Notes under the pieces: generated by a model
Seen by the model: only the letters and a program-made list of their open reading frames with translations
The model's database searches: none
Told to the model about the DNA's origin: nothing
Translations under genes and position numbers: made by a program
Part shown: piece by piece, positions 1,831-4,702 of the stretch
Numbering within the stretch: the first letter of the stretch is position 1
Layout of the letters: each line of letters begins with the position of its first letter
NCBI GenBank assembly: GCA_030669695.1
Contig: DAOVDC010000024.1
Coordinates: forward strand, 1-8,727
Source: Candidatus Bathyarchaeota archaeon
GTDB lineage: Archaea > Thermoproteota > Bathyarchaeia > Bathyarchaeales > Bathyarchaeaceae
Reading direction: 5' to 3'
DNA: 8,727 bases

Positions 1831-1948
1831 TGGCGCCGGGAATGGGATTCGAACCCATGCGGACCAACAGGTCCACGGGCTCTCAAGGCCCGCGCATTAT
1901 CCACTCTGCCCACGGGATGCAAGACTACACGCCTATCATTATCCCGGC
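1831..1948 (-). tRNA. tRNA-Ser(UGA), with encoded CCA and a 30-base intron between positions 8 and 9
   Basis: Read on the minus strand, the acceptor strand GCCGGGA (1948-1942) pairs perfectly with TCCCGGC (1841-1835). It is followed by discriminator G (1834) and encoded CCA (1833-1831). The T-arm is ATGGG-TTCGAAT-CCCAT. The anticodon arm is CGGGC-CTTGAGA-GCCCG, giving anticodon TGA, which reads UCA serine codons. The long variable arm GGACC-TGTT-GGTCC and discriminator G are typical of tRNA-Ser. The D-arm has a 3-bp stem GCA/TGC with A14 and G18G19. Without the intron the body is 85 bases: exon 1 is 1948-1941 and exon 2 is 1910-1834. Removing 1940-1911 restores T8 and G9. A reading as tRNA-Leu(GAG) was tested and fails because the anticodon stem would not pair. 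Confidence 0.9.
1911..1940 (-). other. Non-canonical tRNA intron (position 8/9) in a bulge-helix-bulge fold
   Basis: The 30-base insert interrupts tRNA-Ser between T8 and G9. A full archaeal splicing motif can be drawn. The central 4-bp helix is CGGG (exon 1) with CCCG (intron 3' end). The two 3-base bulges are ATA and TGG, cut as AT^A and TG^G. The inner helix is ATG/CAT, continued after a 2x2 mismatch by AGGC/GTCT around the loop GTGTA. The outer helix is TGC/GCA if the leader base at -1 is included. Cutting after the second base of each bulge gives a normal mature tRNA. The bulge-helix-bulge rule for the archaeal splicing endonuclease is established knowledge. The fold was drawn by hand, not computed. 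Confidence 0.82.
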
Positions 1949-1955
1949 ACAGCAG

Positions 1956-2001
1956 TCCCGGCCCACTAAACGAGCTTAACTAATCTGCGCCATCTTAAAA
2001 C
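1956..2001 (-). promoter_or_regulatory. tRNA-Ser upstream region: candidate TATA elements and a duplicate acceptor strand
   Basis: On the minus strand, GTTTTAAGAT (about 2001-1992) resembles an archaeal TATA element and would place transcription start near 1970, about 22 bases before the mature 5' end. A second candidate, TTAGTTAAG (1983-1975), would start transcription near 1952. An exact copy of the acceptor strand GCCGGGA lies at 1962-1956, 14 bases upstream of the true one. Whether it is transcribed depends on which TATA element is used. Confidence 0.4.
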
Positions 2002-2424: not shown

Positions 2425-2534
2425 TGTCAACGATCAAGGCTATATTTGCGTTGCTAATCCTTGTGCATTTAAACTATTTTGTGAAGAAAAACGAGAAATA
2501 AGCTGATTTTGGCAGTTAGCGCTATATCTGCATG

Positions 2535-2580
2535 TTAATAAAAGTTATTTCGTTCTTTTATGCTAGCATTCGGCAGGGTG
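2535..2580 (+). promoter_or_regulatory. Promoter and Shine-Dalgarno for the CdvA-like gene
   Basis: TTAATAAAA (2535-2543) is a TATA candidate that predicts transcription start near 2566, giving a leader of about 20 bases. GGTG (2577-2580), complementary to the archaeal 16S 3' end, lies 7 bases before TTG 2588. This is the main support for that unusual start codon. Confidence 0.45.
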
Positions 2581-2587
2581 TATAAAT

Positions 2588-3445
2588 TTGATTTCATGGG
2601 AGTATTCCTTTGAGAAAATAAGCAAGGATTTGGAATTAGCGAAGAAAAAGAAACAGGCCCTCGACGATCTGTTTAATACAGGCAAAATCTCGCAGTTTAC
2701 ATATGACTCCTTTAACAAGGGGCTCACGGACACCATCGCAGAGATTGAAACTCATCGGAAAGCCTTGGCTGAAAAGATGACCTCCAAAATCACTGAACTT
2801 GAACAACAGGTCAACACGTTAGAGATGTTTCTCGCAAACGCAGAGATACTTTACGCCGCTGGGGAAATCGATGATGAACTACACACGCGTGAGAGCAATG
2901 CCTTCACTCAAGGACTCGAAGCCACCAAGCAAGAATTAGAGGTCATAAAAGAGGTTGTCACTAATCTCATGCCGGAAAAAATGGAGCTCGCACTTCCACC
3001 CGCACCAGGAGAAATCGTAGAAGCACCGTCGGCAGAAGAGGTTCTTGAAGAAGTGCCTGAAATACCTACAGAAGTGCCGATCGAAGCACAAGTGGAAGTA
3101 GAAACCGAAAACATTTCTGAAGAAACGGAAATTGAGCAACCAATGGAATTACAAGCAGAAGAAGCACCTACAGAAGAGGCATTAACTGAAGAGACACCTA
3201 CTGAAGGGTTCGAAAGGATCGAAGAGAACGCACCTGAAACGCCAACAGAAGAACAGTCCTCATCATCCGAGGAAGTTGATGAAGAACCTGTAGTTTCCCC
3301 AGAAGTTGCCACCGAAACAATTGTAGAAGAGACTCCAATCGAAGGAGAAACTGAAGTGGAAGTTGAAGCAGAGGCAGAGGATACCTCTTCTTTTCAAGGA
3401 GAAGAAGAGGAAGCGGCAGCTGAAGAGCAAGAGGAAGAAGAATAG
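2588..3445 (+). CDS. CdvA-like coiled-coil protein with long acidic C-terminal tail, 285 residues
   Basis: The protein begins at TTG 2588, supported by GGTG 7 bases upstream. Residues 3-130 are charged and helical, with heptad-like leucine/isoleucine spacing (SFEKISKDLELAKKKKQALDD; KITELEQQVNTLEMFLANAEILYAAGEI). This resembles the helical region of archaeal CdvA, the membrane-linked partner of ESCRT-III in TACK cell division. The N-terminal PRC-barrel of classical CdvA is absent, so 'CdvA-like' is the safest name. A proline motif LPPAPGEI follows at about 136-143, and residues 145-285 are an extremely acidic Glu/Pro/Thr tail with imperfect PTEE repeats, probably disordered. No membrane segment is seen. 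No cdvB or cdvC gene is in the window. Function in division or membrane remodelling is inferred from resemblance only. Another acidic coiled-coil protein remains possible. Confidence 0.62.
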   Translation: MISWEYSFEKISKDLELAKKKKQALDDLFNTGKISQFTYDSFNKGLTDTIAEIETHRKALAEKMTSKITELEQQVNTLEMFLANAEILYAAGEIDDELHTRESNAFTQGLEATKQELEVIKEVVTNLMPEKMELALPPAPGEIVEAPSAEEVLEEVPEIPTEVPIEAQVEVETENISEETEIEQPMELQAEEAPTEEALTEETPTEGFERIEENAPETPTEEQSSSSEEVDEEPVVSPEVATETIVEETPIEGETEVEVEAEAEDTSSFQGEEEEAAAEEQEEEE

Positions 3446-3563: not shown

Positions 3564-3628
3564 CTTATAAGCTTTTACTGAACAAGAGTGCTCTATGTGA
3601 ACGTTTTTGATCAACGAGCTTGGAGAGG
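3564..3628 (+). promoter_or_regulatory. TATA promoter and Shine-Dalgarno for the deacetylase gene
   Basis: CTTATAAG (3564-3571) predicts transcription start near 3595. GGAGAGG (3622-3628) lies 6 bases before TTG 3635 and decides the start. The upstream TTG at 3620 overlaps the Shine-Dalgarno itself and is unlikely. AGCTTTAAG and CTTATAAGCT form an imperfect inverted repeat over the TATA element (3553-3573). Confidence 0.55.
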
Positions 3629-3634
3629 ACCCGT

Positions 3635-4702
3635 TTGAAAGTGGGTATAGCCTATCACGAAAAATATTGCCAGTACGATTTAGGACCAGACCACCCTTTT
3701 AGAGGCGATCGATTTGTCAACACCATGCGCCTTTTTGAAGAGCAAGGACTGTTTCGTTTACCTAATGTAACCATGCTAGAACCCAAGCCGGTCACTAAAC
3801 AAGACTTGCTCAAAGTTCACGATAAAGACTACGTAGACCTAATCTTCCGTTTGGCGGAAAAAAGCAAACCATACGATATGGAAACGCCGGTCTCCCCACA
3901 GATACTTGAGGCTGTTCGGCTGATAATAGGTGGAGCTCTAGAGGCGGGGAAAGCGGTTTATGAGGGAAAAGTTGAACGTTCGGTGGCATTAGGTTGTGGT
4001 TATCACCACGCTGGCAGAAATTATGGCGGAGGCTTCTGCTTGTTCAACGACATAGCCGTTCTGGTGGAACATCTCCGTGAAAAGTATGGGCTTAAACGCG
4101 CGTTGATCATAGATTACGATGTGCATTTCGGGAACGGAACCAGTGACATCTACTATTCAGATTCAAGTGTCCTTTACATTTCGTTACATCAGGATCCGAG
4201 AACTATTTACCCAGGCACCGGATTCGTCGAACAAGTCGGAAAGGGCGAAGGAGAGGGATACAACGTCAATGTGCCCTTGCCGCCTGGAACAGGTGACCAA
4301 ACATACCTCTACGCGTTGAAAGAGATTTTTGTTCCTCTTGCAGAAGAGTTCAAGCCAGATCTTATCGTAGCCAATGGAGGAAGCGACCCTCATTTTGCCG
4401 ACACGCTTGGAAGCCTTAGACTCACGGTGAACGGTTTCTTCAACCTATCCCAGATCATAGCTCAAGTAGCAGAAAAAGTGTGCCAAAACAAACTCGTCCT
4501 CATGCCTGGCAGCGGATACAACCCAATGGTTCTGCCGCAATGTTGGTACGCTCTCACGGCAGGAGTAGTCGGCTTAGAAACCATTAATGTAAGCGATTTT
4601 TACACTCCGCCGGTTGAGTCCGACTTGGCTCGTAAAACAGTCAGAAACATGCTTGCAAACCTAAAGCGGATTCTACAGAAATATTGGAGTTCTTTAAAAT
4701 AA
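3635..4702 (+). CDS. Histone deacetylase family (AcuC/HDAC-fold) zinc hydrolase, 355 residues
   Basis: This is a zinc-dependent amidohydrolase that removes acetyl groups from lysines or small acetylated amines such as polyamines. The natural substrate cannot be told from sequence. Counting from TTG 3635, which has a good Shine-Dalgarno, the active-site pair is His124-His125 in GYHHAG, followed by GGGFCLFNDIAV. The expected zinc ligands are Asp162 and His164 in DYDVHFGNGT and Asp251 in GGSDPHFADTLG. The transition-state tyrosine is Tyr295 in GSGYNP. All key residues are present. One deviation is that the usual HH of the DVHHGNG motif is HF here; the replaced residue is not a ligand in characterised HDACs. 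Length is normal for the family. The gene is monocistronic, with its own promoter and a terminator upstream. In archaea such enzymes have been proposed to act on acetylated chromatin proteins, but nothing here proves it. Confidence 0.93.
   Translation: MKVGIAYHEKYCQYDLGPDHPFRGDRFVNTMRLFEEQGLFRLPNVTMLEPKPVTKQDLLKVHDKDYVDLIFRLAEKSKPYDMETPVSPQILEAVRLIIGGALEAGKAVYEGKVERSVALGCGYHHAGRNYGGGFCLFNDIAVLVEHLREKYGLKRALIIDYDVHFGNGTSDIYYSDSSVLYISLHQDPRTIYPGTGFVEQVGKGEGEGYNVNVPLPPGTGDQTYLYALKEIFVPLAEEFKPDLIVANGGSDPHFADTLGSLRLTVNGFFNLSQIIAQVAEKVCQNKLVLMPGSGYNPMVLPQCWYALTAGVVGLETINVSDFYTPPVESDLARKTVRNMLANLKRILQKYWSSLK

Follow-up and report, generated by a model that had tools for sequence, protein, structure and literature searches.

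How can an archaeal tRNA accommodate an intron at a place where the splicing signal has to be built from its own acceptor stem? This question is raised by a tRNA-Ser(UGA) gene on the minus strand (1948-1831) of the window, by which we mean the whole 8,727-nt stretch of Candidatus Bathyarchaeota DNA analysed here. The gene is apparent from the sequence itself, with its body recovered by ARAGORN and the Rfam tRNA model, and is composed of exon 1 with tRNA positions 1-8 (GCCGGGAT, 1948-1941), a 30-nt insert (AATGATAGGCGTGTAGTCTTGCATCCCGTG, 1940-1911), and exon 2 with positions 9-73, anticodon TGA, and the encoded CCA (1910-1831). Within exon 2, the 3′ strand of the acceptor stem (TCCCGGC, positions 66-72, 1835..1841, identified by sequence and pairing scan and hereafter called A) is followed by the discriminator G (1834) and the CCA (1833-1831). 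The first-pass annotation of this DNA had proposed a 30-base intron between positions 8 and 9 whose removal would leave an 85-base tRNA plus CCA, and this proposal holds up in its coordinates and in its product: excision of the 30 nt in our script yields an 88-nt tRNA-Ser(tga) that ARAGORN reads from the first base to the CCA, and 12 relatives carry exactly the predicted T8-G9 join. Alignment to these genes without the insert places the intron at 8/9, a non-canonical position distinct from 37/38, and with both exons in order within 118 bases, the gene belongs to neither the split nor the permuted class.

The relatives fall on both sides of the comparison that the first-pass annotation had suggested, between genes with and without the insert. 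The nearest genome to the window, G001, has 42% of sampled 31-letter words in common with it. An exon 2 search of 27 family genomes gave a match in 20, with the exact T8|G9 join and no insert there in 12 genomes (G006, G009, G010, G012-G015, G018, and G020-G023; flanks read) and an insert at 8/9 in five (G001, G002, G003, G019, and G025); the remaining matches are other or partial tRNAs, and three of the 12 genomes with the uninterrupted join, or their relatives, have inserts at other places. In one pair, G025 with the insert and G018 without it, the two genes are probably one and the same locus in both states, because they share an upstream neighbour gene (53% identity) with matching orientation and a similar placement. 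Across the class, a pattern for the interrupted gene matched 22 of 256 genomes (five in family f1, 13 in f2, one in f6, and three in f10), and a control pattern read backwards had zero matches in the same 256 genomes, so that recurrence of the insert at this site is not a matter of chance. A stricter pattern run over the genome collection found 21 stretches, 19 of which hold this tRNA and two of which (from Kocuria and Acidimicrobiia) look like chance; 17 of the 19 are labelled Candidatus Bathyarchaeota, whereas the labels of the other two, which have f2-type genes, say no more than “archaeon” or “Crenarchaeota archaeon”. With the acceptor strand and T8 fixed in both patterns, variants outside them would escape. 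The pattern for the uninterrupted gene matched 202 of the 256 class genomes, a count that takes in other tRNA-Ser genes too. It is nearly certain to us that the insert is a genuine intron of an archaeal tRNA, at an unusual site, and its excision by the splicing endonuclease is the best supported reading, with splicing itself predicted.

What would the endonuclease recognize? The first-pass annotation had drawn a bulge-helix-bulge across the two junctions, and with helix and bulges enforced it can indeed be folded: CGGG at tRNA positions 3-6 (1943..1946) pairs with CCCG near the end of the intron (1913..1916) to form the central helix, flanked by the bulges AT^A and TG^G, and the inner ATG/CAT helix is extended by AGGC/GTCT into an intron hairpin (1917..1939). 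The same enforced motif, CGGG/CCCG with two 3-nt bulges and predicted cuts after the second bulge base, can be drawn in all 21 folded loci, which include 11 of the 13 f2 loci (the truncated G036 and G039, which is close to G038, were left out). The inner stems vary by lineage (AGGC/GTCT in the window, AGAC/GTCT in G002, and AGACT/AGTCT in G003), so the insert holds its place and pairing across loci while its inner stem changes. The central helix, set by the tRNA itself and built into the search pattern, provides no covariation evidence. Folded without constraints, the window hairpin keeps G4-G6/CCC, pairs A7 and C3 differently, and is 0.9 kcal/mol better; among the 21 loci, such hairpins are 0.3-3.0 kcal/mol better than the enforced motif and close part of the bulges, with G4-G6/CCC in 21/21, A7 paired in 21, and C3 off the intron G in 18. 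Because the freely folded hairpin is more stable, energy alone leaves the cut sites unfixed, and it is the join of the relatives that fixes them. The CGGG strand is also the 5′ side of the mature acceptor stem, and the CCCG of the intron mimics part of the 3′ acceptor strand. Since the motif borrows acceptor positions 3-6, motif and acceptor stem cannot coexist.

This competition was overlooked by the first-pass annotation, right as it was about the intron and its coordinates, and so was an element of the 5′ leader that bears directly on it. Upstream of the tRNA start lies GCCGGGA (1956..1962), a copy of tRNA positions 1-7 that can pair 7/7 with A and that we call L (L followed by a number, as in L003, is a locus label). 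The spacer in between, CTGCTGT (1949..1955), varies among relatives, and a TATA-like TTTAAG found by a crude consensus scan (1994..1999) lies 37 nt upstream of L, counted from its first T, and 51 nt from the tRNA start. The copy is shared by all ten intron genes outside f2 (the window, G001, G002, G003, G019, G025, G056, G110, G113, and G118), in each of which it pairs 7/7 with A at a distance of 1 to 10 nt from the tRNA start, and the leader sequence is absent from every search pattern. It reads GCCGGGA in eight loci, GTCGGGA in G019, and GCCGGGG in G056, with pairing kept through G-U wobble, and its mean pairwise identity is 0.94 compared to 0.37 for the 7 nt before it (10 loci, four of them from one genus). 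In 57 serine tRNA genes without an 8/9 intron, no 7/7 leader copy was found (0/57; best 6/7, in 4). These comparison genes represent a part of the genomes with the uninterrupted pattern, leaving out L051 (N) and L106 (contig end); a crude test of the anticodon marks 44 as UGA-like and leaves the remainder as serine tRNAs of other kinds, and introns at other places occur in some of the 57. The ten L loci, from 7 genera, are related, and we therefore put no weight on an exact-test value.

Folding of the unspliced precursor suggests what such a copy could do. All folds are ViennaRNA secondary-structure energies at 37 C, with tertiary contacts and proteins outside the model. For the ten L genes, the motif helix has a probability of 0.00-0.05 and the mature acceptor stem one of 0.92-0.98 when the leader is left off; with the leader, the motif helix rises to 0.52-0.99. 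Constrained folds of the full precursor point the same way: relative to the acceptor stem, the motif is disfavoured by 2.1 to 7.0 kcal/mol without the leader and favoured by 0.7 to 9.6 kcal/mol with it, each in 10/10 genes. Replacing L by seven A brings the motif probability down to 0-0.19 in nine of the ten, with G056 still at 0.85. The effect is not unique to L, since the motif is also raised by shuffled leaders, which reach the real value in 0 to 32 of 100 cases (ten L genes), and by nine leaders swapped in from genes without the intron, which give motif helix maxima of 0.17-0.97; the shuffled control is a weak one because the leaders are G+C rich. In the spliced RNA, L:A still outcompetes the true acceptor stem in 7/10 genes, by 2.1 to 6.3 kcal/mol, and for these seven the nearest-neighbour energies lend no support to a clean change to the mature stem upon splicing.

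The explanation that we prefer, and to which we assign as a whole a probability of roughly 0.57, joins these elements. In pre-tRNA-Ser(UGA), the splicing endonuclease would cut the 8/9 intron at the bulge-helix-bulge and RtcB would join the exons, with L pairing with A in the unspliced precursor and enclosing the motif like a clamp that holds the splice-ready form. Given the order L, exon 1, intron, A, an L:A helix around an exon 1:intron helix would be nested, and the other assignment would be a pseudoknot; by pairing with A, L would leave exon 1 available to the intron. Once the intron is out, A would have to pass from L to exon 1, either ahead of RNase P cleavage or in its course. Cleavage, ligation, the action of L in the cell, and this hand-over are steps that we infer. 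That the leader copy helps splicing at all is, in our judgement, modestly favoured. More tentative, at slightly less than even odds, is the fuller reading of the leader as a cis splicing element: a stand-in for the acceptor strand that descends from an old exon 1, with a different leader clamp, on the D-loop intron, in the sister lineage f2, and with splicing coupled to both acceptor-stem formation and 5′ maturation and necessarily preceding them.

The required enzymes are predicted in relatives. G001 has two endonuclease genes, one with Tyr/His/Lys and a best match to splicing endonuclease chain 3p1z_B and the other without Tyr and His. The endonuclease type, which the first-pass annotation had left to be identified, thus appears to be one of separate catalytic and structural subunits as in hosts of the alpha-beta heterotetramer; G001 would be such a host, with assembly of the enzyme predicted from its genes. 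This heterotetrameric type accompanies a broad substrate range, according to passages of two papers (PMC4033280, PMC12397907). In ten other intron-bearing genomes, PF01974 genes number two in 8/10 and one in G003 and G025, and the Tyr position of the catalytic subunit is Phe in G113, G118, G056, G040, and G047 (residue comparison of 20 rows, of which G110a and G047b, in a wrong reading frame, were not used). RtcB, a tRNA-splicing ligase by Pfam name, is found in 5/5 genomes searched and RNase P RNA in 3/5, in both cases including G001. As a separate observation, the tRNA gene has an archease gene within ~7 kb in both G003 and an f2 genome, and in G003 rtcB as well (L079 2326-2856 and 6235-7797; L088 6428-6895), and in G002 an RtcB match lies ~8.4 kb from the tRNA-Ser(UGA) gene. 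Archease is an activator of RtcB.

The f2 lineage sets a limit to the role of L. In its 13 intron loci the leader copy is absent, and the 11 distinct rows with a score pair at 4-5 of 7 positions at best (L032 was merged with L031, which has the same flank, and L030 was unscored), and the leader copy is hence rejected as a general requirement for an 8/9 intron. Full-length folds of 11 of the 13 f2 loci prefer the acceptor stem, with a motif probability of 0-0.05 with their own leader, a value equalled or exceeded by 63 to 100 of 100 shuffled leaders. Either some of these genes can do without a leader copy, or static folding gives a misleading picture. The leader of f2 genes is equally long (52-55 nt from the TATA-like element to the tRNA start), and in nascent folds of G028, G033, G040, and G047 it pairs with an intron in the D-loop and thereby encloses the 8/9 motif; the paired strands are GCAGGTT/AACCTGC in G033, GCGGGTT/AACCTGC in G040, and TGCGGT/GCCGCA in G028. 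These few folds faintly suggest that the f2 leader may be another clamp, acting on the D-loop intron. The f2 loci L025-L037 carry inserts besides the one at 8/9, and their leader seems complementary to the D-loop intron.

Where could L have come from? In the L genes, the distance from the TATA-like element is 31-40 nt (median 37) to L and 40-57 nt (median 51) to the tRNA start; in 41 genes without intron, the distance from element to tRNA start has a median of 36 and a range of 28-60 by the same crude and noisy scan. L thus sits at the normal place of a tRNA start and may be a readable trace of archaeal tRNA intron gain. In G110, the copy extends to GCCGGGATGGCA, which matches the initial 12 nt of the mature tRNA. 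Most simply read, L would be the old exon 1, behind which a new exon 1 and the intron were gained, a direction of change that we infer.

The same origin feeds the strongest rival, in which L is nothing but the passive relic of this event, the old exon 1 left upstream, and a plain 8/9 intron would be removed mostly during transcription. The position of L relative to the TATA-like element and the 12-nt copy of G110 fit this view, as does a 5′ fragment of tRNA-Thr left over after intron gain in Caldiarchaeum (described in the part of PMC3293823 available to us), and the f2 genes carry the intron and a leader of equal length without L. Folds of nascent RNA lacking A speak for it as well, given that the central helix forms with a probability of 0.36-0.99 in 19/21 loci and that masking L does not lower it in most cases; no clear gain from L is seen in most genes. 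In the other two loci, G019 and G118, the motif is at 0.00 and L itself binds the intron strand (0.99 and 0.72, respectively). Help from L during transcription is thus not supported by these folds, and splicing before A is made could, in this model, do without L. A relic should decay like its flanks, yet L stays 7/7 pairable in 10/10 loci from 7 genera, and we regard its complete passivity as an unlikely, if serious, alternative to the clamp.

Much less probable is a reading of L as the true exon 1, in which a longer intron made up of spacer, second copy, and insert would be removed. Among predicted acceptor stems, L:A ranks best in 10/10 unspliced and 7/10 spliced RNAs, both choices give an identical mature tRNA in G110, and the pairing of L with the intron in nascent G019 and G118 RNA would suit such an arrangement. 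However, tRNAs have U8, and T8 is not kept after L: the following base is T in only 1/10 loci and C, A, or G in 9/10, compared to T after exon 1 position 7 in 10/10, a base demanded by the pattern though six of the ten L loci (the window and five family genomes) were found without it. A join that uses the inner copy, moreover, equals that of the 12 relatives exactly, and we rank this reading very low. Least credible of all is a dead gene copy with junk as its insert, to which the merely partial recovery of the gene by ARAGORN and Rfam could be taken to point, as its tRNA body is intact, the insert recurs at the same site, and in the sister genomes G001 (98% complete) and G002 (99% complete) the exon 2 search found one tRNA-Ser(UGA) each and the uninterrupted pattern no gene. 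We retain endonuclease and RtcB splicing with an L:A clamp as the preferred account.

The partial recovery belongs to the behaviour of gene finders, which, according to the first-pass annotation, could miss or misread such a site. On the window, ARAGORN calls tRNA-Ser(UGA) with a false 5′ end at 1916, and alignment to the Rfam tRNA model is confined to model positions 9-63 (34.8 bits), compared to 62.0 and 56.6 bits over positions 1-71 in two relatives without the insert. Of 21 unspliced intron genes, ARAGORN called seven, none with the right 5′ end, and the G003 gene was miscalled as tRNA-Leu(GAG); as a finder for 8/9-intron genes it was hence rejected. After in-script removal of the intron, 7/21 loci are complete tRNA-Ser(tga) to ARAGORN and the other 14 are not, most of them with further inserts. 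In practice, the single gene finder tried puts the 5′ end in the wrong place, overlooks the gene, or, in G003, miscalls the amino acid.

Other interruptions were seen along the way. The tRNA-Ser(UGA) of G003 (L003 / L042) has a second insert of 10 nt at about 37/38 (GCTTTGAGAG), shorter than the range of 11-129 nt for intron length given in the consulted part of PMC4090602, and inserts near 37/38 in G006, G019, and G023 measure about 11, 13, and 14 nt by eye. A tRNA-Ser gene in L005, L004, L022, and L024 shows apparent interruptions in the D-loop, near 29/30, and at 37/38; its anticodon is GGA by eye in at least L004, L005, and L022, and ARAGORN finds nothing in L004 or L005. Elsewhere in the window, 2588-3445 encodes a CdvA-like coiled-coil domain protein (PF18822) with a long acidic tail, preceded by a short ORF without Pfam match (2121-2378), and 3620-4702 a histone deacetylase family protein (PF00850); a weak match to the Rfam opuB motif (2510-2621, minus strand; 22.7 bits with a gathering threshold of 75, E 0.67) is most likely chance.

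If the proposed account is true, tRNA introns can occupy a position at which the acceptor stem and the splicing signal compete, and a 5′ leader, usually viewed as discarded, can evolve to resolve that conflict. Non-canonical introns as such are on record: tRNAscan-SE 2.0 counted 673 of them in 217 genomes (PMC8450103), Asgard genomes have many (PMC11291895), and introns in acceptor-stem regions are mentioned in a 2025 paper (PMC12397907). In the portions of the literature covered by our search, whose scope lay outside the site surveys of Marck and Grosjean (2003) and Sugahara (2008), no 8/9 intron and no leader copy of the acceptor strand was seen. An earlier description of the 8/9 site is possible, and what seems new here is the leader element rather than this site alone.

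Compared to known systems, the intron most resembles the non-canonical tRNA introns of Crenarchaeota and relatives, which likewise lie outside 37/38 with a bulge-helix-bulge (PMC4090602). The sites named in the relevant section of that paper are 20/21, 22/23, 25/26, 29/30, 30/31, 45/46, 53/54, 56/57, 59/60 “etc.”, and 3/4; 8/9 is not among them, in a list that ends in “etc.”. Unlike in the introns described there, the central helix here uses the acceptor strand, and the leader copies that strand. A 5′ tRNA fragment similarly persists upstream of the intron-bearing copy of tRNA-Thr(GGU) in Caldiarchaeum (PMC3293823, in the part consulted), but that fragment is a 1.8-kb mobile element away, whereas L lies 1-10 nt from the tRNA start with no element between. 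Finally, split and permuted archaeal tRNAs, as far as the available text of PMC3218864 describes them, likewise build a splice-ready fold through leader pairing; the difference is that here the leader would pair in cis with the 3′ acceptor strand of its own tRNA, outside the motif.
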